This document shows positions 2,794 to 41,054 of a DNA stretch of 41,054 bases, piece by piece. Position 1 is the first letter of the stretch. Every line of letters begins with the position of its first letter. This DNA is from an uncultured Bacteroidota bacterium (GTDB lineage: Bacteria > Bacteroidota > Bacteroidia > Bacteroidales > WCHB1-69). The position numbers were made by a program, and so were the translations under genes. The stretch is from the NCBI GenBank assembly GCA_902797625.1, contig CADBTU010000052.1, forward strand, positions 1-41,054, read 5' to 3'. The notes beneath the pieces are model-generated. The model was not told the DNA's origin and did no database searches. It saw only the letters and a program-made list of their open reading frames with translations.

Positions 2794-4329
2794 TTATTCT
2801 TTGGATGCTATATTTTCGAAAGCTTTATTTATTTTATTTACTATAATATCCTTACCAACAATAACTTCAGCGGTGTTTATTGCGGTTAAAGGCACTCCGC
2901 AGCATCCGTGTAGATATACGTTTTGTCCAGTCTGAAGTAGATTGGTAGCTTTTGTATGAATGGAGATAAAGCCACTGTGAAGGTCTTGGCTATCTTTAGC
3001 TATTCCATAGAGTGCACCTTCAGGAACGTTGTAAAAATCGCGTATTGTGAGAGGCGATGAGGAGAATATACCTTCAATATGATTCTCAAAATCAGGATAT
3101 ACAGCATTCATAATATCAAGAATTTTATGAATATGTTTTTTTTTCCAGTTTTTGTATTCCTTTCCACGATTCTCTACTGAGGTGTTTTTCCATTTTTCGC
3201 ATGAGGAGAAGGGCATCATAGCCAATATTTCCATTGAAGAAGCATATTCACCTTGATTTTCAACACAAGGTGTCAGATAGATAAAACCGTGAGGCCAATT
3301 ATGTTCATCGTATTCTCCGTGTTTCCATGACTTTGAATAATCTTTTTGTAAATAACAGGGATGATTTATATATTTGAAAGAATTGGGCTTAAACTTTATA
3401 AAAACGATGAAAGAGGAATATGTGTTTTTTGCATCGTTAATTCTATTTCTATATGCTTTTGTAAATAATTTATTTTCAGTAAGTTGTAGAAATGAAGATG
3501 GGTGAATTGCTGAAATAAACAGATCAGCAGAATATTCATTACCTTGCGAAGTTATAACTTTAGAAATCTCTTTGTCTTCAATAATTACGTTTACGACAGC
3601 CTCATTGTGTAAAACTCTACCATTGTTTTCTGTTATAACATTAGCGAGTGCATTTGCAAGTTGAATAGTTGAACCCACAAATCGACTTTGCCCTTTGATG
3701 TATAATGTGTTAATAAGAGCAAATATGTAAGACGGTGTATGTCCAGCTATCCCCCCGCACATAGGGTTCATATAAGCGAGAACTTCTTGTAGTTTTTTGT
3801 CTTTTATATAATGGCAAATTAGTTCATCGGCGGGTTTAAAAAACCATTCATCGTGTGCTAATTCGTTTGTATTGCTCGTTTTTAACGAAAAAAGCGGAAC
3901 TTCATCAGATAATTGAAATAGTTTGTTGACGTAGTTAAAGATGTTTTCCTTCTCTTCTGGAAATTCATTTTGAAAATAAGCTATAAAATGATCTTTACCT
4001 TCTGGGATTCTAAAAGTGCGATTGTCAGAAAGAAAGGTTATTTGGTCCATACATTCAGGATCAATGTCTTGTAGTTTTATTTTTTGAAGTATGTTTAAGT
4101 AGTTACATATTTTAAATATTGAGCCATCATTTTTAAAACCTCCAAGAATGTGCATTCCTGTATCGAAACTTATTCCGAATCGTTGAAAAGACTGCAGGCC
4201 TCCGCCAATGATGGCGTTTTTCTCAAGAATTGTAACAGAGAAACCTTCTTTGGCAAGCAGTGCGCCAGTAAATAAACCACCGATTCCGCCACCGATAATG
4301 ATAATATTTTCTATTTTTTTATCTATCAT
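2794..4329 (-). CDS. FAD-dependent oxidoreductase, CrtI/retinol-saturase-like (copy 2)
   Basis: A 511-residue flavoprotein of the phytoene desaturase/carotenoid isomerase/all-trans-retinol 13,14-reductase superfamily. These enzymes bind FAD and desaturate, saturate or isomerise long polyene chains. The N-terminus (residues about 8-40) shows the dinucleotide-binding GGGIGG motif with the downstream ILEKN acidic strand end, followed by GGGLQSF and FDTGMHILGG. A second FAD-contact region near the C-terminus includes NVYLHGCCGVPL. It overlaps the upstream paralogue by 11 nt and is the last gene of the thiL-ispG-exporter operon. It resembles its upstream neighbour throughout, suggesting tandem duplication. 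The substrate is unknown; a polyene lipid made by the right-hand cluster or a carotenoid are both possible. Confidence 0.85.
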   Translation of the reverse strand: MIDKKIENIIIIGGGIGGLFTGALLAKEGFSVTILEKNAIIGGGLQSFQRFGISFDTGMHILGGFKNDGSIFKICNYLNILQKIKLQDIDPECMDQITFLSDNRTFRIPEGKDHFIAYFQNEFPEEKENIFNYVNKLFQLSDEVPLFSLKTSNTNELAHDEWFFKPADELICHYIKDKKLQEVLAYMNPMCGGIAGHTPSYIFALINTLYIKGQSRFVGSTIQLANALANVITENNGRVLHNEAVVNVIIEDKEISKVITSQGNEYSADLFISAIHPSSFLQLTENKLFTKAYRNRINDAKNTYSSFIVFIKFKPNSFKYINHPCYLQKDYSKSWKHGEYDEHNWPHGFIYLTPCVENQGEYASSMEILAMMPFSSCEKWKNTSVENRGKEYKNWKKKHIHKILDIMNAVYPDFENHIEGIFSSSPLTIRDFYNVPEGALYGIAKDSQDLHSGFISIHTKATNLLQTGQNVYLHGCCGVPLTAINTAEVIVGKDIIVNKINKAFENIASKE

Positions 4330-5818
4330 TTTCTTGAAAAGTATTAGTTAAAAATTCAGAATTACCAAAAATATCGGAACAAACTGTCAAAGAACCGATA
4401 ATAACGCCTTGAAATCCGTGACTGTTAACGTTTTGTCCTGCGAGGTGTACATTAGAGAATTTAGTACGGTGAGCAATTCGAGTTAAAGCACCTCCACCAG
4501 CAATTTTTGATATTCCGTACATACCTCCGTATTCAGTACCAGTATAATCCAAGTATGTTAGGGGAGTAGAAGTATAATATTCAGCAATATTGTTGGTTAT
4601 ACCAGGAAAATCTTTTTCTAAAAATGATAGTAGTTTTTCAGCGCAATTAGCTTTGAAGGTATTATATTTTTCGCCTCGTTGCCCGATTTTAGATCCTATC
4701 CAATCTTCTACTTCATTGAAATTTATATATGACAGAACAACGCCAGATTCTGCAAATTTTTGATTAGTTTCATTACAAAAGTGCATATATAAATACCCTT
4801 TAGGCCATTCTTCTTTAGTGTAATATTCGCAATCCCAAGGGGTATTATTTTTATAAGAATAGAAGTTAAAGTTCATATATGGGACACTATTTTTCTTGAA
4901 ATTCAGATAAATAGAGAAACAACCTGGAGACTGTTGTAAATTGTTAATACGCTCGCGATACGTTTTTCTAATAATATGACTATCGGTTAACTCTAAAAAA
5001 CGTGCTGGATGTATTGCTAAGATAAACTCATCAGCCGTAAAAGAAGTGCCATTATCACAGATAATTTCTCTTGCAAAATTTTCCTTACTATTTAATTTTT
5101 CTACTTTATGATGTGTAAGAACTCTACCTCCATAGCTTTCGATAGTTTTGCATAAAGAGTTAGCAATTGTATCGCTACCGCCTATAATTCTGTAGGCTCC
5201 ATTTCTATAGAAATCCATAATGAAAGCAAAAAGTGAAAATGGTGTTCTATCTTTTCGAGCAGCGTAAAGAGGTAAATTTCCTACTAAAATATTTCTTAAA
5301 GTCTCATCTTCTATGGATTCATTCAAAACATTGTCTAATGGTAGGTCTCCTAAAATAAGTGCTTCGGAATCAGGAATTTGATTCTTACCAATGGTTTTAA
5401 TTGAAGAATTATTAACAACTAAATCTATCTTCATCCAAAGGTTTTCTAATTGTTTACTTTGGTGCGGAAAATCTATCTTTAGTTTTTCAAGGAGTGATTT
5501 TTTGCCTATAGGAAAAGAGTATTTTAATTTTTTGATTTTGAAAACGTCATAACCATCAGTATCTAAAGGAGAAAGGAGTATGTTTTTATCCAATTCCAAA
5601 TATTTCCAGATACCATTTAGGGGTTGGTTATCGCCAACAGAGCCAATAAAGTGCATTCCAGTTTCAAATTTTACACCTTTGCGTGTAAAACATTGCAGGC
5701 ATCCTCCAATTTGTGCGTTTTGTTCTAAAACGGTAACATTATAGCCATTTTTTGCTAATATAACGCCACAAGTAAGCCCGCCAAGTCCACTACCAACTAT
5801 TATAACACTTTTTTTCAT
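4319..5818 (-). CDS. FAD-dependent oxidoreductase, CrtI/retinol-saturase-like (copy 1)
   Basis: A 499-residue paralogue of the downstream gene in the same superfamily. The N-terminal Rossmann motif reads VGSGLGGL, then VLEQNAQIGGCLQCF and FETGMHFIGS, aligning residue for residue with copy 2. The C-terminal region includes AGGGALTRIAHRT and NVHLAGQNVNSHGFQGV, the usual second FAD-binding site of CrtI-like proteins. The ATG overlaps the stop of the exporter-acyltransferase gene in an ATGA arrangement, so the two are likely co-translated. No phytoene synthase lies nearby, so a classical carotenoid role is not supported by context. Oxidoreductases of this family also accompany aryl polyene and flexirubin-type clusters in Bacteroidota. 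Confidence 0.85.
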   Translation of the reverse strand: MKKSVIIVGSGLGGLTCGVILAKNGYNVTVLEQNAQIGGCLQCFTRKGVKFETGMHFIGSVGDNQPLNGIWKYLELDKNILLSPLDTDGYDVFKIKKLKYSFPIGKKSLLEKLKIDFPHQSKQLENLWMKIDLVVNNSSIKTIGKNQIPDSEALILGDLPLDNVLNESIEDETLRNILVGNLPLYAARKDRTPFSLFAFIMDFYRNGAYRIIGGSDTIANSLCKTIESYGGRVLTHHKVEKLNSKENFAREIICDNGTSFTADEFILAIHPARFLELTDSHIIRKTYRERINNLQQSPGCFSIYLNFKKNSVPYMNFNFYSYKNNTPWDCEYYTKEEWPKGYLYMHFCNETNQKFAESGVVLSYINFNEVEDWIGSKIGQRGEKYNTFKANCAEKLLSFLEKDFPGITNNIAEYYTSTPLTYLDYTGTEYGGMYGISKIAGGGALTRIAHRTKFSNVHLAGQNVNSHGFQGVIIGSLTVCSDIFGNSEFLTNTFQENDR

Positions 5819-8800
5819 ATCTTCGTTGTATAATAGTTTTGATAATATAATATTTTCTCGTTATATTCATCTGTTTCAATCTCATCACATAGTTTAGAAT
5901 AATGTTCTAAATAATGATGTCTCATCTTTTTTGCCGTGCAAAGGTCAATACTGTTGTCATTATCAGAACTATTTTCTAAGTATGGTTTATAACGTTCACC
6001 TATTTCGAGTAAAGTTTCGCCTTCGCACAGTATCAACTCTTCTTTAGGAAGAATGTGTCCAGCACCGTGAAGATAGAGAGGCAGAATATCAGCATTCAAT
6101 TTTCTTGCAAGTGCGAAAGCTCCCTTATGAAATCTCATAATTTTGCAGTCTGTAGAGCGAGTTCCTTCAGGGAAAATACAGATAGAGTATCCTCTTTCGT
6201 ATAAATCTTGAAGTTTAGGGAAATTATCTTCAAAACCATTGCTCACAGGATAAAATTCAGCTTTGCGAATAACGAGGCCATAAAGAGGGTTTCTCCAAAC
6301 CCAATCATTTGTGAGAAAAATTATCTTAGGAGTAAGTGAAAGAATATATAAAATATCTAAATGACTCTGATGATTACAGATTATAACAGCAGGTTTGTCG
6401 AATTTTTCGTTGTGATTATTTCTTAGTGTATGTTTAACACCAGGAATATGTTTAGAGTATAAAAGTGATATTTTTTGTATTACTTTGTGGAATTTTTCTC
6501 TTTTTTCATCAGAATCTTTGCCAATAAGAAAATAGAAGAAAGTAAAAGGTTGAACAAGTAGGAAAACCATAACCACAAAAGCACTGCCGTATATAAAAGA
6601 GTAGAATATTCGTTTTAATGTCAATGGTGTGCGACGTTTTTTACCATTCTTCTTAATCAAAAAATCGAAAAGCAACGGAGGTACGAAAACAGCCATTAGT
6701 ACAACTGTCAGCATTCCGATTATAGTTACTGTTGCTAATGAATGTAAGGCTGGATGTTTAGCAATAATTAAACAACCTATACCCGCAAACATAATAATTG
6801 CAGATATAAATACGCTGTGTTTATAGGCTGCTAATCGAGGTTTTCCAGTTGTGTATTCGTAAAGGAGCCCTTCGGTTATGAATATTGTATAGTCGTCGCC
6901 CTGACCAAAGATGAATGTGGCTAAAATAATGTTTACAATGTTAAATTGGATGTTTAATAGGTGCATGATTCCCAAAATCCAAATCCAAGCCAGTGTTAGA
7001 GGCAAAAATGCTAATAAAGCAATTTCTACTTTTCTGAAAGAGATTAGAAGGAAAACAAAAACCACGATTCCACACACAAGTCCGATGAAATCAAAAGATT
7101 CTCGAAGCATTTCTATAAGTTTGTCTCCTAACTCTTCGTTAGAGAAAAGGTAACAATTATCAGTTAAATATGTATCAATACTTTTATGTAGTTTGGTTTT
7201 ATCGTCTGTGTAAACATAGTTGATTATTTTACATCCTTCATCATCAAGAAAAATGTATTTGTTGAGAAATGGTTGAATAAAATCGTTGAAATCTTCTATT
7301 TCAGAAATGCCGTATTCATTGGTTAGCATTGATGTAAAAGGATAGAAAGCAGTAACTGAAAATCCTTCTCGATTAGCACAAATTTCAAATTGTTTGATAA
7401 TATCATTATGAGATTTTTCTTTCCAAAAATTATTCCAGCGATTAGCAGCTTCGAGCATTGATTTTTCATCAGGAAGAAATTCTCCTATTCCACTTATTTG
7501 TATGTCAGGATTAACTTTTCGAATATTTTTTATGAGATTGTTGTTGTGTTCAACGGCAGATTTTAAATCGTTGCCAATTGCAACAGCATAAAGTGCATCA
7601 GAAGGTTGAATTTCAGAGAGAACTTTCATACTTTCGCGTTGCTGTTCAGTCATAAAGTTTATATGCGAAAGGTTGCTATCGAATGATGTTTTTGTTGAAA
7701 AATATCCAAAAAATAGTGTGAGAATAGCAATAAGTAAGGCGATAAAAGATTTAGCTTTACTTCTTGAAAGATGAAAGTTAGAGAGTTTTCCAAAGAGTTT
7801 GTTTTCAGATGGAGAAGGGCGTTTTTTTATAAGGTGAGGAAGGAAGATAAGGACGAACAATATTGTTCCAAACAGCACTAAAGAACCAAATATTCCGAGA
7901 TCTTTCATAGCTTGAGCATCTAACCAAACTAAGCAGACAAAGGCGGCAATAGTAGTGATATTGCCAATAAGTAGAGGTCGAATCATCTCTATAAGAGTTG
8001 CTCGTCTATCGCCAATTTCTTTATATTCGTCAAGGAAATGTAATGGATAGTTAGCAGCTATACCTATGATTACAGAACCGATGCCTAATACAATTATGGA
8101 AGTTGAAGATTTGAGTACAGACATACCAGCTATAGCAAACAATACCCCGAATAAAATGGTAAATCCAACCCAAGCTATATCTGTTATTCTTCTGTAGTGT
8201 AAAAAGAGTATTAAAAATATTAAAACTAAGGCAATAGTTACAGCCAAAAGTGAATCTTTTTTTATTTGAGTGGAGTTTGCAACAGCGATTAACGGAGCTC
8301 CAATGGCAACAGCTTTGATGTCAGGGAATTCTGACTCAATTTCATATAGTAATTTATCAATATGTTTTGCAAGTTGAGTATTATTACCACTTTCGTTGGC
8401 ACCGAAAGGTGTATCAAAAGTAACAATACCATATTTTCCGTCAGCGGTAAATATGTAATCGTCAATGATTTGCATCGAACTATTAATTTTCAGACTTTGT
8501 AGTTTTTGCAGTGCTGGTGAAAATAGGCGAAGAGGATCGTAGGTTATAGTTTTTGCAAATGTTCCAGCCGAAGGTAACATCAATATTTTCTTATCCTCTT
8601 CGAGTTGATTGTTGATGAAATTTGGAGTTTTTAGCAGAGAATCTATACGATTATAATCACTTTCGGTTAGTAAATAAGGGATATGTTCATAAACAGCTTC
8701 TATGAGATCGAACATTTGAGTTTGGTCAACCGTAACCGATAAATTTTCAATCATAATATCCTCATCAACAATCTCTGCAAACTTTTCTATAGCCTCTATA

Positions 8801-9048
8801 ATTCTATCTTGTGATACGGAATCTTTCCCATAAAAAAGAATTGCAATATTATTTTGAGAGGTTAGTTGTTCTAATGATTTTCCTAGTTCATTATTGTTGT
8901 TATTTGGAAGAAACTTTGAAATATCTTCTTCATAATTTATTCTACTTGCAAGAAAAAAGAGCCCTAAGGTTAATAGAATCATTAAAACGAAAGAGAAAGT
9001 TCGTTTTTTTTCGAAAAAGTCGAATATAATTAGGAAAATTTTTTTCAT
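5815..9048 (-). CDS. MMPL-family (RND-like) exporter fused to PlsC-type acyltransferase
   Basis: A 1077-residue two-part membrane protein. Residues about 1-830 form an MMPL/RND-like lipid transporter: one N-terminal membrane helix, a large periplasmic loop, a helical bundle, a second periplasmic loop starting near residue 440, and another bundle. The TM4-like segment carries GQGDDYTIFITEG. Residues about 880-1050 are a lysophospholipid-acyltransferase domain with motif I NHQSHLD (H892 and D897) and motif III FPEGTRS (about 959-965). The likely role is moving a lipid-linked product across the inner membrane while esterifying it to an acceptor. Separate or fused versions (ApeM/ApeJ-like functions) occur in aryl polyene and flexirubin clusters. 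It shares ATGA overlaps with ispG upstream and the oxidoreductase downstream, so it is firmly in this operon. Confidence 0.9.
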   Translation of the reverse strand: MKKIFLIIFDFFEKKRTFSFVLMILLTLGLFFLASRINYEEDISKFLPNNNNNELGKSLEQLTSQNNIAILFYGKDSVSQDRIIEAIEKFAEIVDEDIMIENLSVTVDQTQMFDLIEAVYEHIPYLLTESDYNRIDSLLKTPNFINNQLEEDKKILMLPSAGTFAKTITYDPLRLFSPALQKLQSLKINSSMQIIDDYIFTADGKYGIVTFDTPFGANESGNNTQLAKHIDKLLYEIESEFPDIKAVAIGAPLIAVANSTQIKKDSLLAVTIALVLIFLILFLHYRRITDIAWVGFTILFGVLFAIAGMSVLKSSTSIIVLGIGSVIIGIAANYPLHFLDEYKEIGDRRATLIEMIRPLLIGNITTIAAFVCLVWLDAQAMKDLGIFGSLVLFGTILFVLIFLPHLIKKRPSPSENKLFGKLSNFHLSRSKAKSFIALLIAILTLFFGYFSTKTSFDSNLSHINFMTEQQRESMKVLSEIQPSDALYAVAIGNDLKSAVEHNNNLIKNIRKVNPDIQISGIGEFLPDEKSMLEAANRWNNFWKEKSHNDIIKQFEICANREGFSVTAFYPFTSMLTNEYGISEIEDFNDFIQPFLNKYIFLDDEGCKIINYVYTDDKTKLHKSIDTYLTDNCYLFSNEELGDKLIEMLRESFDFIGLVCGIVVFVFLLISFRKVEIALLAFLPLTLAWIWILGIMHLLNIQFNIVNIILATFIFGQGDDYTIFITEGLLYEYTTGKPRLAAYKHSVFISAIIMFAGIGCLIIAKHPALHSLATVTIIGMLTVVLMAVFVPPLLFDFLIKKNGKKRRTPLTLKRIFYSFIYGSAFVVMVFLLVQPFTFFYFLIGKDSDEKREKFHKVIQKISLLYSKHIPGVKHTLRNNHNEKFDKPAVIICNHQSHLDILYILSLTPKIIFLTNDWVWRNPLYGLVIRKAEFYPVSNGFEDNFPKLQDLYERGYSICIFPEGTRSTDCKIMRFHKGAFALARKLNADILPLYLHGAGHILPKEELILCEGETLLEIGERYKPYLENSSDNDNSIDLCTAKKMRHHYLEHYSKLCDEIETDEYNEKILYYQNYYTTKI

Positions 9049-33830: not shown

Positions 33831-33861
33831 TTGTTTTTTTTTCAAAAAAATACTATTTTTG
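33831..33861 (+). promoter_or_regulatory. Promoter of the polyene-type biosynthetic operon
   Basis: TTG (33831-33833) and TATTTTTG (33854-33861) are separated by 20 nt, fitting the Bacteroidota consensus. The first ACP gene starts 48 nt later at 33910. No other promoter is evident downstream, where genes overlap or are closely spaced. Confidence 0.6.
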
Positions 33862-33909: not shown

Positions 33910-34152
33910 ATGGAAATTAAGCAAATTGAAGAAAAGGTAAAAGCATTTCTTGTAGAAGATTTAGAAATTGAAGGGGAGAAAATTTTTCCTGATGCACGTT
34001 TGAAAGAAGATCTCGGTATAGATAGTCTTGATTTTGTAGATATAGTAGTGATTGTTGAGAAAACATTTGGTTTTAAGATAAAACCTGAAGATATGAAAGA
34101 TGTTAAAACCCTCTCTCAATTCTGCGAATATATCGCCTCTAACGTTGAGTAA
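33910..34152 (+). CDS. Acyl carrier protein (first copy)
   Basis: An 80-residue acyl carrier protein. The phosphopantetheine attachment Ser39 lies in LGIDSLDFVDI, and the acidic helix II (VEKTFGFKIKPEDM) fits the fold. It carries growing acyl chains for the ketosynthases and dehydratases encoded downstream. It begins a plus-strand operon of at least twelve genes. A dedicated ACP at the head of such a cluster corresponds to ApeE in aryl polyene systems. The housekeeping ACP would normally sit beside fabF and is not this one. Confidence 0.93.
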   Translation: MEIKQIEEKVKAFLVEDLEIEGEKIFPDARLKEDLGIDSLDFVDIVVIVEKTFGFKIKPEDMKDVKTLSQFCEYIASNVE

Positions 34153-35047
34153 AAAAACTATTGTCTCCACAACTGAAAACCACTGGCAGGGTAGGACAGA
34201 TGGCACTAATTGGATGCATAATGCCCTAACTGTTTTTATGCGTTTTGTTCCGCTTAGATTTATGTATCTTATTGCGGACATTTTTGTAGTACCCTTCTAT
34301 TTACTATTTTCTAATTCATATCTTGCTATCTATCATTATTTTAGAAAAATTCATAACTATAATCCTATAAAGTCTTTTTTCTCAACTTATAAGAATTATT
34401 GTCAGTTTTCAAAAAATATTCTTGATAAATTCTATATGTTTTCGGGCGGAAAGTTTGATTTTGAAATTGAAAATATGGATTTGTATGAGTCTTTTTCAAA
34501 AAAAAATGACGGATTTTTGATTTTTAGTGCTCATGTTGGTAATTATGAACTTGCTGGATACACTCTTAGAGCAACCGATAAACCTTTTAACGCACTTGTT
34601 TTTGCAGCTGAAGCTGATATAATAATGAAAAATAGAACGAAACTATTTGCTGGAAATAATATCAAGATGATTCCTGTAACGGAGGATATGTCGCATCTGT
34701 TTACATTAAATAACGCTCTTGAAAAAGGTGAGAGTGTTAGCATACCCGCAGATAGAGTAGTTGGAGAACAAAAGACTTTCGCAACAACTTTTCTTGGACG
34801 CGAGGCACTTTTTCCCGCAGGTCCTTTTCTATTAGCAGCTAAACGGGATTTGGATGTGCTCTCAATCCAAGTGATGAAAGTTGCAACAAAAAAATACCAT
34901 ATATATATCAAAGCACTTGATAAATATGGTGCTTCAGTTCAAGAACGTTCGATGAATTTACTTCATTCTTATATTACTCATATAGAAACCGTTTTACGAA
35001 CCTATCCTCATCAATGGTTTAATTTTTATGAATTTTGGAAATCCTAA
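34145..35047 (+). CDS. Lipid A-type lysophospholipid acyltransferase (LpxL/HtrB-like)
   Basis: A 300-residue membrane-associated acyltransferase of the LpxL/HtrB family, corresponding to the acyltransferase ApeD of aryl polyene clusters. An N-terminal hydrophobic segment (MRFVPLRFMYLIADIFVVPF) is followed by the catalytic H-x4-E in SAHVGNYE (H130, E135) and by ADRVVGEQKTF and FPAGPFLLA, typical later motifs. It probably acylates the lipid anchor or transfers the polyene chain. A start at TTG 34145 is chosen: it overlaps the ACP stop by 8 nt and gives the family's N-terminal WQGRTDG. The longer ATG at 34100 would overlap ACP by 53 nt. Confidence 0.85.
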   Translation: MSKKTIVSTTENHWQGRTDGTNWMHNALTVFMRFVPLRFMYLIADIFVVPFYLLFSNSYLAIYHYFRKIHNYNPIKSFFSTYKNYCQFSKNILDKFYMFSGGKFDFEIENMDLYESFSKKNDGFLIFSAHVGNYELAGYTLRATDKPFNALVFAAEADIIMKNRTKLFAGNNIKMIPVTEDMSHLFTLNNALEKGESVSIPADRVVGEQKTFATTFLGREALFPAGPFLLAAKRDLDVLSIQVMKVATKKYHIYIKALDKYGASVQERSMNLLHSYITHIETVLRTYPHQWFNFYEFWKS

Positions 35048-35062
35048 CTTGCTAATATTTAC

Positions 35063-35503
35063 GTGATGATTGATATAACTAAAATAAATGTAAAAGAACT
35101 TATTCCTCAAAAGGAGCCTTTTGTTATGCTCGATAATCTGCTATTTGCTAATAGTTATTCCGCAGAGTCGTCTTGGAAAATACCATCAAACGCTATTTTC
35201 GTAAATAGTGGAAAATTATCTCCTTGCGCTTTTCTCGAAAATATGGCTCAAACCTGCGCTGTACAGCTTGGTTATATCGATAAATATATTTTTAATAATA
35301 TCATAGTGCGAATAGGATTTATCGGCTCTGTGAAAAATTTTACAATTTTAGAAATACCATCTGTAGGTGATACTATTATTACTAAGATTGAAATTTTAGA
35401 ACAGATAATGGATATGAAACTCATTAACGCTGTATCGAAAATTGATGATAGAGTTGTTGCAACAGCAGAATTGAAAATAGCAATTTCTGATAAATCTTTG
35501 TAA
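35063..35503 (+). CDS. Hotdog-fold dehydratase-like protein (ApeP-type)
   Basis: A 146-residue hotdog protein resembling 3-hydroxyacyl-ACP dehydratases of aryl polyene clusters. The segment LIPQKEPFVMLDNLL corresponds to the FabZ start, and SPCAFLENMAQTCAVQLGY to the central helix. The FabZ catalytic GHFP sequence is absent; that region reads VNSGKLSP. The ApeP/ApeI-type dehydratases use a different arrangement, so activity cannot be ruled out. It starts 15 nt after the acyltransferase and is followed by the ketosynthase gene after 2 nt. A second ATG one codon in (35066) would also serve. Confidence 0.75.
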   Translation: MMIDITKINVKELIPQKEPFVMLDNLLFANSYSAESSWKIPSNAIFVNSGKLSPCAFLENMAQTCAVQLGYIDKYIFNNIIVRIGFIGSVKNFTILEIPSVGDTIITKIEILEQIMDMKLINAVSKIDDRVVATAELKIAISDKSL

Positions 35504-35505
35504 AA

Positions 35506-36663
35506 ATGAGAGTAGTTAAGGTTTCAGATAGTATAATCTCTCCTTTGGGTTTTTCTGTTGAAGAAAACTTCGACTCTCTGTTGCGAGGAGGTTCTGCTTT
35601 GCGAAAGTATAATAGATTGTGGGGACTTCCTTTTGAATTTATGGCTTCAATTTTTGATGAAGAGGAACTAAACAATTACTTTATAGAAAATATTGACATA
35701 ACAAAACTGCCTCATTCAAATTGCACAAAGTTTGAAAAAATTGCACTACTTTCAGCTTTTAAAGCTATTTCTTCAGCAAATATTGACCCAAAATCGCATC
35801 GAATTTTATTCATATTATCATCTACGAAAGGAAATATTGAACTTCTGTCAACCTCGAATTTTGATCCAAATAGAGTTTTACTTGGCAATACTGCTCAAAT
35901 GATTGCTCGCTATTTTGGAAATACTAATAAACCTATTGTGGTTTCAAATGCTTGCATATCGGGGTTGTGTGCTCAAATTGAAGCTATGAGGTTTTTGAAA
36001 TCAGGTAGTTACGATTTTTGTGTTGTGATTGGAGCAGACGTGTTATCTCCGTTTATAGTTTCTGGTTTTAATTCTTTGAAAGCCCTCTCTACAGAGCCGT
36101 GTAAACCTTTCAGTATAAATCGCAACGGACTTAATTTAGGCGAAGCTGCAGCAACAATCATCTATTCCACTGTTGATGATGGGAAGAATAATTGGGAAAT
36201 TGTGTGCGGAGCAACTCGTAATGATGCTAATCATATTTCTGGACCTTCCCGCACAGGTGATGGAAGTCTCTCCGCATTAAACTATGTTCTACAATATTCA
36301 GGATGCAAAATTGCAGATATTGCCTTTGCCAACGTTCACGGAACAGCTACTCCATATAACGATGAAATGGAATCTATTGCACTTGAGCGCGCTGGTTTGA
36401 GTGATTTGCCAATAAATTCTTTAAAAGGTTTTTATGGACATACTCTCGGTGCTGCTGGTGTTTTGGAAGTGATTCTCTCTATGTGTTCTCTCGATAAAGG
36501 TAAGATTCTCCCAACGCATGGATTTGATAGCTTAGGCGTATCTGGAAATATAAATGTAATATCTACTTTACAAGAAACAAATAAACACTCTTTTTTGAAG
36601 TTACTTTCTGGTTTTGGCGGCTGTAATTCTTCTGCAATCTTTACTAAATTACGCAAACTATGA
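35506..36663 (+). CDS. Beta-ketoacyl-ACP synthase, first ketosynthase of the cluster
   Basis: A 385-residue FabF-like ketosynthase that extends acyl-ACP by decarboxylative condensation with malonyl-ACP. The complete catalytic triad is present: C150 in SNACISG, H278 in NVHGTATP and H312 in KGFYGHTLGA. FSINRNGLNLGEAAA also matches the family. It is shorter and more divergent at its N-terminus than housekeeping FabF. The stop overlaps the next gene by 4 nt (ATGA), linking it to a small KS-like protein that may be its partner subunit. Confidence 0.9.
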   Translation: MRVVKVSDSIISPLGFSVEENFDSLLRGGSALRKYNRLWGLPFEFMASIFDEEELNNYFIENIDITKLPHSNCTKFEKIALLSAFKAISSANIDPKSHRILFILSSTKGNIELLSTSNFDPNRVLLGNTAQMIARYFGNTNKPIVVSNACISGLCAQIEAMRFLKSGSYDFCVVIGADVLSPFIVSGFNSLKALSTEPCKPFSINRNGLNLGEAAATIIYSTVDDGKNNWEIVCGATRNDANHISGPSRTGDGSLSALNYVLQYSGCKIADIAFANVHGTATPYNDEMESIALERAGLSDLPINSLKGFYGHTLGAAGVLEVILSMCSLDKGKILPTHGFDSLGVSGNINVISTLQETNKHSFLKLLSGFGGCNSSAIFTKLRKL

Positions 36664-37235
36664 AAGAAAGAAATTTTCTCATAAAACATTCTGTAAAAAT
36701 TGAACCTAACAAGGTGTCTCTTGATGGAATAGATGTTTTGCTGTCTGAAAGATATAACACTTTTTTGAGTGATATTTATCACGAAAAGAGACTTGCTTAT
36801 CCGAAATTTTTCAAAATGGATATTCTTTGTAAAGTTGGGTTCTTAGCCACCGAGATTCTTCTTGAAGCAGAGAATATAGAGAGATTTGTGCCTCGCCGCG
36901 ACCGCTCTATAATATTTTGTAATAAATCCTCATCTGTATCTACAGACTTAAAGTTTACTCATGATATTTTAGATTTGGATAATTTTTATCCGAAACCTTC
37001 TCTCTTTGTTTATACGCTCCCTAATATTGTTACTGGTGAAATTGCTATAAGAAATAAATATTTTGGTGAAACAAATCTTTTTGTAATGAATGATAGAGAT
37101 GATAATGTAATCTCAGAACTTGTTGAACATGCTCTGATGGATGAGGAAATAAATAGTGTTGTAGGAGGTTGGATTGATGCTGAATCTGAGAATGATTATG
37201 AAGCAGACTTATGCATATTTGAAATAAAACAATAA
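36660..37235 (+). CDS. Small thiolase-fold/KS-like protein without an evident active site
   Basis: A 191-residue protein I cannot place firmly. Its middle (ATEILLEAENIER, then SIIFCNKSSSVSTD, then FVYTLPNIVTGEIAIRNKY) resembles half of a ketosynthase/thiolase fold: the Pxx-Asn-x-x-x-GEIAIR stretch is where a ketosynthase would have its nucleophile region, but no Cys is there. Proteins of this size occur next to ketosynthases in Bacteroidota flexirubin/aryl polyene clusters, where they may act as a non-catalytic partner or chain-length factor. It overlaps the KS gene by 4 nt and precedes the second ACP by 11 nt. No signal peptide or membrane helix is visible. Confidence 0.6.
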   Translation: MKERNFLIKHSVKIEPNKVSLDGIDVLLSERYNTFLSDIYHEKRLAYPKFFKMDILCKVGFLATEILLEAENIERFVPRRDRSIIFCNKSSSVSTDLKFTHDILDLDNFYPKPSLFVYTLPNIVTGEIAIRNKYFGETNLFVMNDRDDNVISELVEHALMDEEINSVVGGWIDAESENDYEADLCIFEIKQ

Positions 37236-37246
37236 ACATAAAAAGT

Positions 37247-37504
37247 ATGGAACTTATTGAAGAATTAAAATTAAAGATGATTGAGGCTTTGAACCTCGAA
37301 GATTTGAAACCAGAGGATATAGATAACGACGCACCTCTTTTTGGAGATGAAGGTATTGGATTAGATTCTATCGACGTACTCGAACTTATAGTTTTGATGG
37401 AACGAAATTATGGAATTAAAATTTCAGATTCAAAAACGGGAAAACATATATTTTCATCAGTTCGAACAATGGCCGATTTTGTTGCTGAAAACAGGACAAA
37501 GTAA
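37247..37504 (+). CDS. Acyl carrier protein (second copy)
   Basis: An 85-residue ACP with the phosphopantetheine Ser41 in IGLDSIDVLEL. The sequence differs clearly from the first ACP, notably in the acidic loop APLFGDEGIG before the motif and a longer C-terminal helix. This form is like ApeF-type carriers and those paired with polyene synthases. The stop codon shares one base with the ATG of the second ketosynthase (TAATG at 37502-37506). Two different carriers in one operon suggest either starter versus elongation roles or two acyl products. Confidence 0.92.
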   Translation: MELIEELKLKMIEALNLEDLKPEDIDNDAPLFGDEGIGLDSIDVLELIVLMERNYGIKISDSKTGKHIFSSVRTMADFVAENRTK

Positions 37505-38685
37505 TGCACGACCGCGTAGTTATAACGGGCATAGGGTTAGTTACAGCTCTTGGTAATAATGTTACTGAGAATCTTCATAATCTTACTAATGCTGTTTCAG
37601 GCATAAAACAGATGAAATTTTTAGTATCTGAGCAGAAACAATTTCCTGTTGGAGAGGTGAAACTTTCAAATCAAGAGATGTGTGAAATTCTTGATTTGCC
37701 GTACGATTGTCATATTTCGCGAACCTCATTGCTTGGTATTCTTGCACTTAAAGAGGCTCTAAAAGATAGTGGTTTGCTTGATACAAAAGGATTAGGGTTG
37801 ATTTCTGGCACTACGGTTGCGGGAATGGACATCACAGAGCAACATTATCCAGAGCCATTGCCACCCAACAAACCTCCAGTTCACGATTGTTGTTCAAATA
37901 CGAATTTTATTGCTGACTATTTCGGGCTTTTTGATTATACCTCCACTATATCAACAGCATGTTCGTCAGCTTTAAACTCTTTGATTTTAGCAAAGATGCT
38001 TATTGAGAATGGTGTTAAATACAAGGTGGTTGCTGGAGGTACCGAAGCTTTATCAAAATTTCATCTTAATGGATTTAGGTCGCTAATGATTCTTGATGAA
38101 AATCCGTGTCGCCCTTTTGATAAAACACGCTCAGGGTTGAATCTTGGCGAGGGTGCTGCGTATCTCGTGCTTGAAAGTGAGAGTTCTGCAAAAGAGCGAG
38201 GAGCAAAAATTTTAGGAGTTCTTAGCGGTACTGGAAACGCTTGTGATGCCTTCCATCAAACAGCAACTTCTCTTTCTGGCGAAGGAGCGTTTCTCGCAAT
38301 GAATAAGGCTATAACTTCTGCTGGAATTACCCCCAAGGATGTTGATTATATCTCTGCACATGGCACAGGAACTCCTGATAACGACTCTTCTGAAAGTGCT
38401 GCAATATTGCGCCTGTTCGGTGATGATTATCCACCAATATCCTCCACAAAATCCCTAACTGGACACACCACAAGTGCTTCTGGTTCTATTGAGGCAGCTT
38501 TTTGTCTTTTAGCGATAAATAACTATTTCATACCTCAAAATGTAGGTTACTCTGCTCCAGATGAAAATTGTATTGTTCCTTTCGTGGGTGAAAATACTGA
38601 AGATTTAAAACTTAACAATGTTATGTGCAATGCTTTTGGATTTGGAGGCAATGATTCATCAATTATTATCTCACGATATGAATAG
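37504..38685 (+). CDS. Beta-ketoacyl-ACP synthase, second ketosynthase (FabF-like)
   Basis: A 393-residue FabF-like ketosynthase with an intact triad: C153 in STACSSALN, H286 in SAHGTGTPDND and H321 in KSLTGHTTSAS. The N-terminal VVITGIGLVTALGNN and PFDKTRSGLNLGEGAA also fit. It is closer to canonical FabF than the first ketosynthase in the cluster. The stop overlaps the start of a shorter KS-like protein by 8 nt, as in KS/chain-length-factor pairs of aryl polyene clusters (ApeO-ApeC type). Confidence 0.92.
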   Translation: MHDRVVITGIGLVTALGNNVTENLHNLTNAVSGIKQMKFLVSEQKQFPVGEVKLSNQEMCEILDLPYDCHISRTSLLGILALKEALKDSGLLDTKGLGLISGTTVAGMDITEQHYPEPLPPNKPPVHDCCSNTNFIADYFGLFDYTSTISTACSSALNSLILAKMLIENGVKYKVVAGGTEALSKFHLNGFRSLMILDENPCRPFDKTRSGLNLGEGAAYLVLESESSAKERGAKILGVLSGTGNACDAFHQTATSLSGEGAFLAMNKAITSAGITPKDVDYISAHGTGTPDNDSSESAAILRLFGDDYPPISSTKSLTGHTTSASGSIEAAFCLLAINNYFIPQNVGYSAPDENCIVPFVGENTEDLKLNNVMCNAFGFGGNDSSIIISRYE

Positions 38686-39295
38686 AGTTTTTGTTACAGC
38701 TATTGTTGATAGTGTTTCTGAAGAAGAAATAAAAAATCTAATATCTCCAGTAAAATCTCGTAGGTTTGGATTTTTACAGAAACGCGCACTTGCAATTGCT
38801 ATTAAAGCCCTCGAAGATGGCAAAGTAGACAAGCCTGATATGATTCTGAATGGAACTTTTATGGGCTGTATCGACAATTCTCTGAAAATTCTTGAAAATA
38901 TGCACTCAGAAGGTGAATCGGTTTCTATGCCTACAGCTTTTATGCAATCAACACACAATACAATATCTTCTCTTATAGCGATTTATACTAATAACCATGC
39001 TTATAATGCAACATATTCTCATGGTGATATATCTTTTGAATGTGCCTTGCAAGATGCTTTTCTTCATCTTAAATCAGGATTAGCAACTTCAGCATTGGTG
39101 TGCAAAAATGATGAGATTACTTCTTTTATGCAACAAAATCCTGACTTTTTCGGAACTATAACTCCAAAAGATATTTCTGAAGCGTGGGTTCTTACTACCA
39201 ATCCTAATATAACTCCTATTTTTGAGATTCAAGATGTTGTTATTTCACATAAAAAAGGTTACGATTCGGCAAAAATTCTAAAAATTAAATTATGA
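38678..39295 (+). CDS. KS-like chain-length-factor-type protein (ketoacyl-synt_2 type)
   Basis: A 205-residue protein of the N-terminal ketosynthase-like family found as the partner of a ketosynthase in aryl polyene clusters (ApeC-like). The signature MPTAFMQSTHNTISSLIAI is typical: the place of the active-site Cys is taken by Thr/His. SRRFGFLQKRALAIAIKAL is another family stretch. It most likely forms a heterodimer with the ketosynthase encoded immediately upstream and sets chain length. The ATG at 38678 overlaps the KS stop by 8 nt and is preferred over a start 60 nt earlier. Confidence 0.82.
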   Translation: MNRVFVTAIVDSVSEEEIKNLISPVKSRRFGFLQKRALAIAIKALEDGKVDKPDMILNGTFMGCIDNSLKILENMHSEGESVSMPTAFMQSTHNTISSLIAIYTNNHAYNATYSHGDISFECALQDAFLHLKSGLATSALVCKNDEITSFMQQNPDFFGTITPKDISEAWVLTTNPNITPIFEIQDVVISHKKGYDSAKILKIKL

Positions 39296-39642
39296 GACTA
39301 ATCCTTTTAGCTTTACTACAATCAATGTTACTATGTTCTGGACAGGTTTTTCTAAAATTAGCTTTAGAAAAAATGGGATCTTTTGAAATGAAAATATCAT
39401 TTTTTTTCTCGCAATTCGTTAATTTCTGGTGGCTCGCAACAGGAATATGCTATGGCTCTGCAGCAATTCTGTGGTTCTATATACTAAAAAATTTTCCTTT
39501 CTCAAAAGCCTATCCCTTGATTTCTGTTTCTTATGTTTTTGGAATGATAGCTGCAGTAGTTGTATTCAAAGAAACTGTTCCACCTATTAGATGGTTGGGA
39601 GTACTTCTTATTATGGCAGGCTGTTTTTTTATCGCAAAATAG
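39292..39642 (+). CDS. Small four-helix EamA/SMR-type transporter
   Basis: A 116-residue membrane protein with four helices, like one half of an EamA transporter or an ArnE/ArnF-type flippase subunit. Hydrophobic segments lie at about 3-22, 44-64, 71-91 and 98-115. Tell-tale parts are SGQVFLKLALEKMG at the first helix, PFSKAYPLISVSYVFGMIAAV and the C-terminal RWLGVLLIMAGCFFI. Placed between the KS partner and the LolA-like gene, with ATGA overlap to the former, it may flip an undecaprenyl- or lipid-linked intermediate. It could work as a homodimer. Confidence 0.82.
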   Translation: MRLILLALLQSMLLCSGQVFLKLALEKMGSFEMKISFFFSQFVNFWWLATGICYGSAAILWFYILKNFPFSKAYPLISVSYVFGMIAAVVVFKETVPPIRWLGVLLIMAGCFFIAK

Positions 39643-39670
39643 ACACGATATTATTTTTAAATTATTAGTG

Positions 39671-40306
39671 ATGCGTAAAAATTTTTTAATATCAATTATC
39701 GTAATTTTATTCACTATTTCTCTCGGGGCTCAATCATTAAAAAAAGTACCTCAAGAGCAACAAGAAAAAATTATCTATAATATTGAAAAAAATGTTTCTT
39801 CAGTAAAAACTATTCAGTGTGATTTTCAACAAATTAAAAATGTATCTCTGCTGAATGACAAAGTAATATCTAAAGGAAAAATGTTCTTTTCTAATGGAAA
39901 TCTTCGCTGGGAGTACCAAATACCTTATCACTATGCTTTTGTCGTTTTTAACCAACAGGTTTTTGTGAAATCTGAAAACGAAATAAAAAAAATGGACGTT
40001 CAAAGCAGTCAATTCTACAAACGTATTGCTCAACTAATGGTTAGTACAATTTCTGGAAATAATCTCTCACAGAATAATGAATTTAATGTTGAATTATATT
40101 CTATTGGTACAAAATATGTGGCAAAACTCATTCCAAAGCAGACTAAACTTAAAAAGATGTTTGTTGATATAAATCTTCATTTTAATAATGCTCAAAATCT
40201 TGTTGAAAAAATTGTTATAAACGAGGCTTCTGGTGATAAAACAACTATAGAAATTATGAATGCAAAAACAAATGTGATAATCACAGATTCGATATTTTTA
40301 CAATAA
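39671..40306 (+). CDS. LolA-like outer-membrane lipoprotein carrier protein
   Basis: A 211-residue periplasmic protein with a signal peptide ending at about residue 20 (FTISLGAQ). The mature part has the LolA-like pattern: repeated strands including CDFQQIKNVSL, SKGKMFFSNGNLRWEY and QVFVKSENEIKKMD. It is the counterpart of ApeL, thought to shuttle the polyene lipid from the exporter to the outer membrane. The upstream start at 39560 in the same frame is rejected because it lacks a signal peptide and overlaps the transporter gene. The ATG at 39671 lies 28 nt after that gene. Confidence 0.85.
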   Translation: MRKNFLISIIVILFTISLGAQSLKKVPQEQQEKIIYNIEKNVSSVKTIQCDFQQIKNVSLLNDKVISKGKMFFSNGNLRWEYQIPYHYAFVVFNQQVFVKSENEIKKMDVQSSQFYKRIAQLMVSTISGNNLSQNNEFNVELYSIGTKYVAKLIPKQTKLKKMFVDINLHFNNAQNLVEKIVINEASGDKTTIEIMNAKTNVIITDSIFLQ

Positions 40307-40341
40307 AATTAACTAGTTACCTTAAACTTTTTGCAATAATT

Positions 40342-40701
40342 ATGATTTTAGAAAATCACTTATATTACATAGTCGCTCAGGAAGATAAATCTTTTAGACT
40401 GAAACTCTTGTCAGATAGTGTGATTTTTAAAGTTCATTTTGAAGGTTTACCTATACTTCCAGGCGTTTGTATAGTTCGCATAGCAACTGAACTTGTTGAA
40501 AAAATTATAGGAAAATCTTTGCAGCTTTCTGAAATTCGTAGTATAAAATTTCTCGATATAATTTCCCCAGATGAGATTCTTGAAATAGATTATATTTTTA
40601 GCGAAATTGTAGAAAAAGACAATACTATTGTTGCAAAGGGTATTGTTTCAGATGGAAATAAAACATTTTCTAAGTTTTCAATATTATTTAGTGTAGTTTA
40701 A
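40342..40701 (+). CDS. Hotdog-fold 3-hydroxyacyl-ACP dehydratase-like protein (ApeI-type)
   Basis: A 119-residue hotdog protein. The segment FKVHFEGLPILPGVCIV is close to the FabA/FabZ/ApeI active-site stretch (usually GHFPxxPxxPG), with candidate catalytic His32. The following helix RIATELVEK fits. It probably dehydrates 3-hydroxyacyl-ACP during polyene elongation. It is the second hotdog protein of the cluster, and unlike the first it retains the His-containing motif. It is followed at once by the glycosyltransferase gene (1-nt gap). Confidence 0.8.
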   Translation: MILENHLYYIVAQEDKSFRLKLLSDSVIFKVHFEGLPILPGVCIVRIATELVEKIIGKSLQLSEIRSIKFLDIISPDEILEIDYIFSEIVEKDNTIVAKGIVSDGNKTFSKFSILFSVV

Positions 40702-40702
40702 T

Positions 40703-41054
40703 ATGAACTGTAAAGATTTTTTCAAAGCAGAAAGAATCTGTGTGATAATTCCCACTTACAATAATGCTTCTACTTTGCTTGATGTGCTTAATAGAGTGTT
40801 AGTCTTTACCGATGATTTGATAGTTGTTAATGATGGTTCAACCGATGACACAAATAAAATATTAGAAGATGAAACTTTTTCAATTATCGAGAAGGTTTCT
40901 TATTCAAAAAACCAAGGCAAAGGTTACGCATTAAAGGTTGGTTTTAAACGTGCTTTAGCATTAAATTATAATTATGCTATTACTTTGGATTCAGATGGAC
41001 AGCATTTTCCTGAAGATATACCACTATTCTTGGAAAACTATTCTAAAAATAGAA
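40703..41054 (+). CDS. Glycosyltransferase family 2, partial (runs off the window)
   Basis: An open frame from ATG 40703 to the edge, 117 codons without a stop. The translation shows a GT-A fold: RICVIIPTYNNAST, then LIVVNDGSTDDTN, KNQGKGYALKVGF and the metal-binding DSDGQH. This matches dolichol-phosphate mannosyltransferase-like GT2 enzymes; in aryl polyene clusters ApeJ combines such a domain with an acyltransferase. Whether this gene continues into an acyltransferase domain cannot be seen. It probably adds a sugar to the lipid headgroup. Confidence 0.85.
   Translation, partial: MNCKDFFKAERICVIIPTYNNASTLLDVLNRVLVFTDDLIVVNDGSTDDTNKILEDETFSIIEKVSYSKNQGKGYALKVGFKRALALNYNYAITLDSDGQHFPEDIPLFLENYSKNR

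Follow-up and report, generated by a model that had tools for sequence, protein, structure and literature searches.

A probable aryl-polyene lipid operon with two predicted ketosynthase/chain-length-factor pairs in a Bacteroidales genome

Gene content of the operon and its known counterparts

The window analysed here, a stretch of 41,054 bases from an uncultured Bacteroidales bacterium, is the entire contig C52 of a metagenome-assembled genome (MAG; G000, 1.81 Mb in 139 contigs, 99.6% complete), and its end is the contig end. Its terminal part, 33910-41054, holds an uninterrupted operon of 12 genes on the + strand with intergenic spacing of -8 to +35 bp, in the order ACP1, LpxL-type acyltransferase, HD1, KS1, CHP, ACP2, KS2, KSn, EamA, LolA, HD2 and GT2 (Table 1), where ACP stands for acyl carrier protein, HD for hotdog protein, KS for ketosynthase, CHP and KSn for ketosynthase-like partners without a nucleophile, and GT2 for a glycosyltransferase. 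The start codon of the acyltransferase gene is uncertain (TTG 34145, ATT 34160 or ATG 34100), and GT2 is incomplete because the window is the whole contig; the rest of GT2 was not located in the targeted searches by which pathway parts outside the operon were sought in the genome. An earlier note on the window had read this region as a polyene-lipid operon of the aryl polyene/flexirubin type, and its parts list holds in full: the genes lie on one strand in the order it gave, both ACPs carry their DSL/DSI serines, KS1 and KS2 keep the Cys-His-Lys-His set, the two partners lack the nucleophile, and Pfam confirms the LpxL-type acyltransferase, the flippase-like EamA protein, LolA and GT2.

Table 1. 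Features of the operon and of the exporter/flavoprotein group in the window
Feature	Coordinates	Strand	Evidence and remarks
Bacteroidota-type promoter match TTG-N20-TATTTTTG	33831..33861	+	~48 bp 5' of ACP1; consensus match only
ACP1, ApeF-like acyl carrier protein	33910..34152	+	PF00550 1.5e-13; 46% to E. coli ApeF
LpxL-type acyltransferase	34145..35047	+	PF03279 1.2e-13; similar to the acyltransferase portion of E. coli ApeJ
HD1, ApeP-like hotdog dehydratase, putative half-site subunit with the acid (Glu59/Gln63)	35063..35503	+	FabZ models 8.8e-8; hhalign to ApeP
KS1, active-site-complete ketosynthase of the second predicted pair	35506..36663	+	PF00109/PF02801
CHP, putative minimal chain-length-factor partner of KS1, no nucleophile	36660..37235	+	Predicted fold; fusion to KS1
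ACP2, ApeE-like acyl carrier protein	37247..37504	+	51% to E. coli ApeE; PRK09184 above cut-off
KS2, ApeO-like active-site-complete ketosynthase	37504..38685	+	32% to ApeO across 403 aa
KSn, ApeC-like chain-length-factor partner of KS2	38678..39295	+	PF13723 (Ketoacyl-synt_2); PDB 7f28_A (ApeC) 2.4e-9
EamA small membrane protein, ArnE/ArnF-like	39292..39642	+	PF00892 6.7e-10; ArnE/ArnF models below cut-off
LolA2 periplasmic carrier, flexirubin type	39671..40306	+	NCBIfam NF053544 LolA2_flexi 167 bits, cut-off 125
HD2, ApeI-like hotdog dehydratase, putative half-site subunit with His32	40342..40701	+	PF22818 ApeI-like 18 bits, below cut-off; hhalign to ApeI 96%
GT2 glycosyltransferase, cut by contig end	40703..41054	+	PF00535 8.7e-20; 36% to glycosyltransferase half of ApeJ
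MMPL/RND exporter ending in an acyltransferase domain, equivalent to ApeM+ApeD	5815..9048	-	PF03176 + PF01553; 54% to exporter within the cluster of relative G005
FAD-dependent CrtI/CrtD-like oxidoreductase 1	4319..5818	-	Syntenic with operon in relatives
FAD-dependent CrtI/CrtD-like oxidoreductase 2	2794..4329	-	47% to relative's cluster gene

In light of the comparisons that follow, the operon very probably supplies the core functions, polyene assembly and attachment to the envelope, of a flexirubin/aryl polyene (APE)-type pathway for an aryl-polyene lipid. Nearly all of its parts, together with genes elsewhere in the genome, find one-to-one counterparts in the apeA-apeR cluster of E. coli CFT073 (PMC8253772; NC_004431 1143727-1158748), which likewise features two ACPs (ACP1=ApeF, ACP2=ApeE), a KS/chain-length-factor (CLF) pair (KS2=ApeO, KSn=ApeC), a further KS (KS3=ApeR), a ketoreductase (KR=ApeQ), the ApeI/ApeP dehydratase (HD2=ApeI, HD1=ApeP), a methyltransferase (MT=ApeB) and the functions of ApeL (LolA), ApeJ (whose two halves correspond to the LpxL-type acyltransferase and GT2), ApeM and ApeD (the MMPL protein and its C-terminus, respectively). 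The domain fusions differ, ApeJ joining a GT2 to an acyltransferase whereas here the acyltransferase is joined to the MMPL exporter; the E. coli cluster also lacks a KS1-CHP pair and starts from 4-hydroxybenzoate via ApeH instead of a tyrosine ammonia-lyase and FlxY. KS1 and CHP are the sole ketosynthase-type parts for which the comparison with the CFT073 cluster gave no counterpart of their own.

The earlier note had seen no ketoreductase or starter gene, which is correct for contig C52 but not for the genome: contig C34 carries an ammonia-lyase, a ketoreductase, a third ketosynthase (KS3, ApeR/FlxC type) and a methyltransferase adjacent to one another, and contig C36 an acyl ligase plus a small hydrolase. 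Five proteins of the genome exceed the cut-offs of NCBI's curated flexirubin-pathway families, namely LolA2 and the equivalogs (bits/cut-off) FlxA tyrosine ammonia-lyase (845/700), FlxB reductase (405/340), FlxJ methyltransferase (592/560) and FlxY ligase (680/520). The same ammonia-lyase, reductase, methyltransferase and ligase types are shared with the flxA-flxY clusters of Chitinophaga pinensis and Flavobacterium johnsoniae (PMC3992019), as are several ketosynthases, two dehydratases, LolA, a glycosyltransferase, an exporter and an acyltransferase; for C. pinensis, five ketosynthase genes (FlxC, I, L, N, O) have been reported in the cluster, along with two for dehydratases (PMC3992019). Unlike in those clusters, no DarB is found in the genome, no halogenase was seen nearby and the genes are distributed over several loci. 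Genes typical of APE clusters were found here as well: an ApeO-ApeC-type KS-CLF and two distinct free ACPs, complementary hotdog proteins of the ApeI/ApeP type whose complex is predicted from sequence, a ketoreductase and ApeR-type KS on C34, an acyl ligase on C36, and acyltransferase, GT2, LolA and MMPL genes for envelope attachment and export.

Relatives retrieved by protein search are Bacteroidales, chiefly MAGs from rumen and gut, along with isolates of Prevotella and Segatella, and in most of ~80 of their loci the genes stand in the order HAL-KR-KS3-MT-ACP1-LpxL-HD1-(TE)-KS1-CHP-ACP2-KS2-KSn-EamA-LolA-HD2-GT2-MMPL-FADox (HAL, ammonia-lyase; TE, thioesterase; FADox, FAD-dependent oxidoreductase); within the genus, most of the genomes examined share the operon's gene order. 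The earlier note had overlooked the exporter and the flavoprotein pair at 2794-9048 on the - strand, the genes that follow GT2 in these relatives. Here they lie ~25 kb upstream of the operon on the opposite strand, behind an ispG-like gene, and the cluster has therefore been broken up in this lineage. Predictions for 8,160 rumen genomes yielded 2,800 aryl polyene clusters (PMC8241843). Given the near-complete set of Ape counterparts and a gene order recurring in dozens of Bacteroidales genomes, the operon belongs to a widespread and already known kind of cluster, of which only the second KS-CLF pair is unusual.

Two ketosynthase pairs and a probable split dehydratase

The catalytic residues Cys150-His278-Lys307-His312 of KS1 are invariant in 61 family members and the Cys-His-Lys-His set of KS2 in 59, such that KS1, KS2 and KS3 all retain it with no exception in the 59-61 members of each. 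In a maximum-likelihood tree, KS1, KS2, KS3 and FabF form four separate clades, that of KS1 with 100/100 support, and the KS1, KS2 and KS3 clades each cover Bacteroidales as well as other families of the class. KS1 is old, since its clade has that span, and the separation of the clades across families rules out its being a recent copy of KS2. KS1 occurs with KS2 in every relative genome bearing the operon; a seeming case of KS1 without KS2, in G004, reflects a contig that stops just after CHP.

For KSn, the first PDB match is Acinetobacter ApeC (7f28_A, PMC8358021; 2.4e-9) and the third Xenorhabdus ApeC (6qsp_B; 6.5e-7). CHP, at 191 aa, matches no Pfam or NCBIfam family and gives no signal against KSn by profile comparison (hhalign E 0.33), for which reason its fold was compared instead. 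Its AlphaFold model (pLDDT 87.8) retrieves KS and CLF chains as the leading PDB matches in Foldseek, with the CLF chain of the ishigamide KS-CLF Iga11-Iga12 (6kxd_B, E 2.6e-7) on top and ApeC of two species also among them; the same chain is its best, if weak, profile match (E 0.018). CHP differs from that CLF in being roughly half its size, in its 13% identity and in its Bacteroidota origin, ishigamide being an actinomycete product. An apparent direct homology of CHP to KS1 (hhalign E 3e-73) proved to be an artefact of KS1-CHP fusions within the KS1 alignment, which led to the fusions being counted: KS1-CHP is a single protein in 24 of 68 loci and KS2-KSn in 36 of 83.

Such fusions in other loci argue that each KS would work together with its partner, and the model of one relative's fused KS1-CHP (pTM 0.92) is compatible with a fixed KS-CLF arrangement. 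As modelled, CHP appears to combine a KS fold lacking the catalytic Cys with a pairing to KS1, as in a CLF, and from its fold match, adjacency and fusion to KS1 we conclude that it is probably a minimal CLF. KS1-CHP and KS2-KSn are thus two separate, predicted KS-CLF heterodimers. This upholds the two KS/partner pairs of the earlier note but not its idea that each pair, placed after an ACP of its own, forms an elongation module: the system is of the dissociated type II, a third KS is present in the genome, ACP1 in relatives adjoins KS3, MT and LpxL and not KS1, and the KS1-then-KS2 order is standard in Bacteroidota. A side observation from several loci (L049, L070, L085, L094, L106 and others) is that the fused KS2-CLF protein, of ~740-810 aa, has an extra C-terminal stretch.

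The two hotdog proteins, both present as had been noted, are likewise better explained by complementation than by the duplication proposed for them. In 61 sequences, HD1 has an invariant Glu59 and Gln63 but no catalytic His, whereas HD2 has an invariant His32 and Pro/Gly motif but no conserved acid motif; the same Glu-only/His-only split is seen between ApeP and ApeI of E. coli, and an ApeI/ApeP dehydratase that is a heterodimer with one active site has been published (PMC8041823). Because of this complementary split and the ApeI/ApeP precedent, HD1 and HD2 are most likely complementary halves of one predicted heterodimeric dehydratase encoded by two genes.

Proposed pathway and competing explanations

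In the following scheme, which builds on the gene content, homology, conserved active sites, fusions and predicted fold described above, the reactions, their order and the product are taken from the protein families. The FlxA-type ammonia-lyase would convert tyrosine to 4-coumarate, which the FlxY-type ligase would activate for ACP loading, followed by addition of malonyl units by KS3, KS2-KSn and KS1-CHP. The FlxB-type reductase and the HD1-HD2 dehydratase would take each unit as far as a double bond, without an enoyl reduction step, the FlxJ/ApeB-type methyltransferase would modify the ring, the LpxL-type and MMPL-fused acyltransferases with GT2 would join the polyene acid to a lipid, and MMPL, EamA and LolA2 would carry that lipid to the outer membrane. 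We thus predict a tyrosine-derived, ring-methylated aryl-polyene acid on an outer-membrane lipid, and for gut and rumen bacteria with this pathway the predicted product is a yellow aryl-polyene lipid bound to the membrane.

Several points weigh against such an assignment: the pathway is spread over at least four places in the genome, GT2 is cut by the contig end, the 4HBT thioesterase present in many relatives was not found in a genome search run without a positive control, and the product is predicted from genes, with the tyrosine starter suggested by the FlxA equivalog. Decay of the pathway in this genome, with no finished lipid being made, as the scattered parts and missing thioesterase might imply, is nonetheless quite improbable, given that all frames are intact, active sites are conserved, the operon is tight and preceded by a promoter consensus, and the thioesterase is also wanting in several other relatives. 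There is virtually no probability that the operon makes ordinary or unsaturated fatty acids and has nothing to do with polyenes. KS, ACP and dehydratase genes do also serve fatty-acid synthesis, but the primary-metabolism FabF is encoded on C9 and falls in its own clade, and the genome has an ApeC-type CLF and equivalogs specific to the flexirubin pathway; the earlier note had named unrelated families or an ordinary fatty acid operon as findings that would undo its polyene reading, and the family-level placement instead supports that reading and refutes the fatty-acid one.

A true flexirubin, in which the aryl polyene is esterified to a dialkylresorcinol, would account for the FlxA, FlxB, FlxJ, FlxY and LolA2_flexi equivalogs and for the KS1-CHP-ACP2-KS2-KSn core, which other families of the class have beside DarA/DarB. 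It is highly improbable nevertheless, since only the polyene half of the curated flexirubin proteins was found and not DarA/DarB of the dialkylresorcinol half: the 99.6% complete genome has no match to PF08541 (KAS III) and only a weak one to PF08545, in KS2 itself, and DarA/DarB, the former sought only in flanks, were not found in the flanks of Bacteroidales loci bar one weak DarB hit (3e-6, L057), as opposed to detection in four of four control loci. With no KAS III-type protein, and hence no DarB, a dialkylresorcinol ester would not be expected, and an aryl-polyene lipid is predicted in preference to a flexirubin. More room must be left for two product lines, with KS1-CHP making a different acyl chain (e.g. 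a modified fatty acid within the lipid anchor) and KS2-KSn with KS3 the polyene: KS1 is an old, separate clade and, like CHP, lacks a counterpart in E. coli, where the polyene is complete with ApeO-ApeC and ApeR (PMC8358021, PMC8253772). We consider this division unlikely, as KS1 goes with KS2 in every operon-bearing relative genome and the operon holds no extra reductase or enoyl reductase for a second chain; both KS-CLF pairs most likely act on the polyene chain. It is quite conceivable, if somewhat short of probable, that Bacteroidota aryl-polyene/flexirubin pathways in general use two distinct KS-CLF heterodimers, the second of which, with its unnamed and very small CLF family (CHP), would perform a step absent from the E. 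coli-type pathway, such as longer polyene extension or a second lipid acyl chain. Few specialised metabolites of Gram-negative bacteria are as common as aryl polyenes, and the structural work on their ketosynthase machinery that we found in the literature is proteobacterial; CHP as a CLF, and KS1-CHP as a second pair, set the Bacteroidota version directly apart from the E. coli-type one in a way that can be tested.

Further observations in the genome and its relatives

This genome has no FabH (KAS III, PF08541), nor does any of the 36 genus genomes examined carry one of canonical strength; FabH is present in most other families of the order. KS1 was considered as a stand-in for it and rejected, as G006 (94% complete), a member of the genus, is without KS1, KS2 and canonical FabH alike. 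Near the FlxY-type ligase the genome has another, weaker MMPL/RND homologue (C36:46584-48965; 28% identity), and in several relatives (L104, L105) the cluster is likewise followed by a second MMPL gene. Several Segatella and Prevotella clusters (L064:4167-4688, L060, L063) further encode a small secreted-looking protein between KS3 and the methyltransferase; a weak match to it also turns up next to class-level flexirubin loci.

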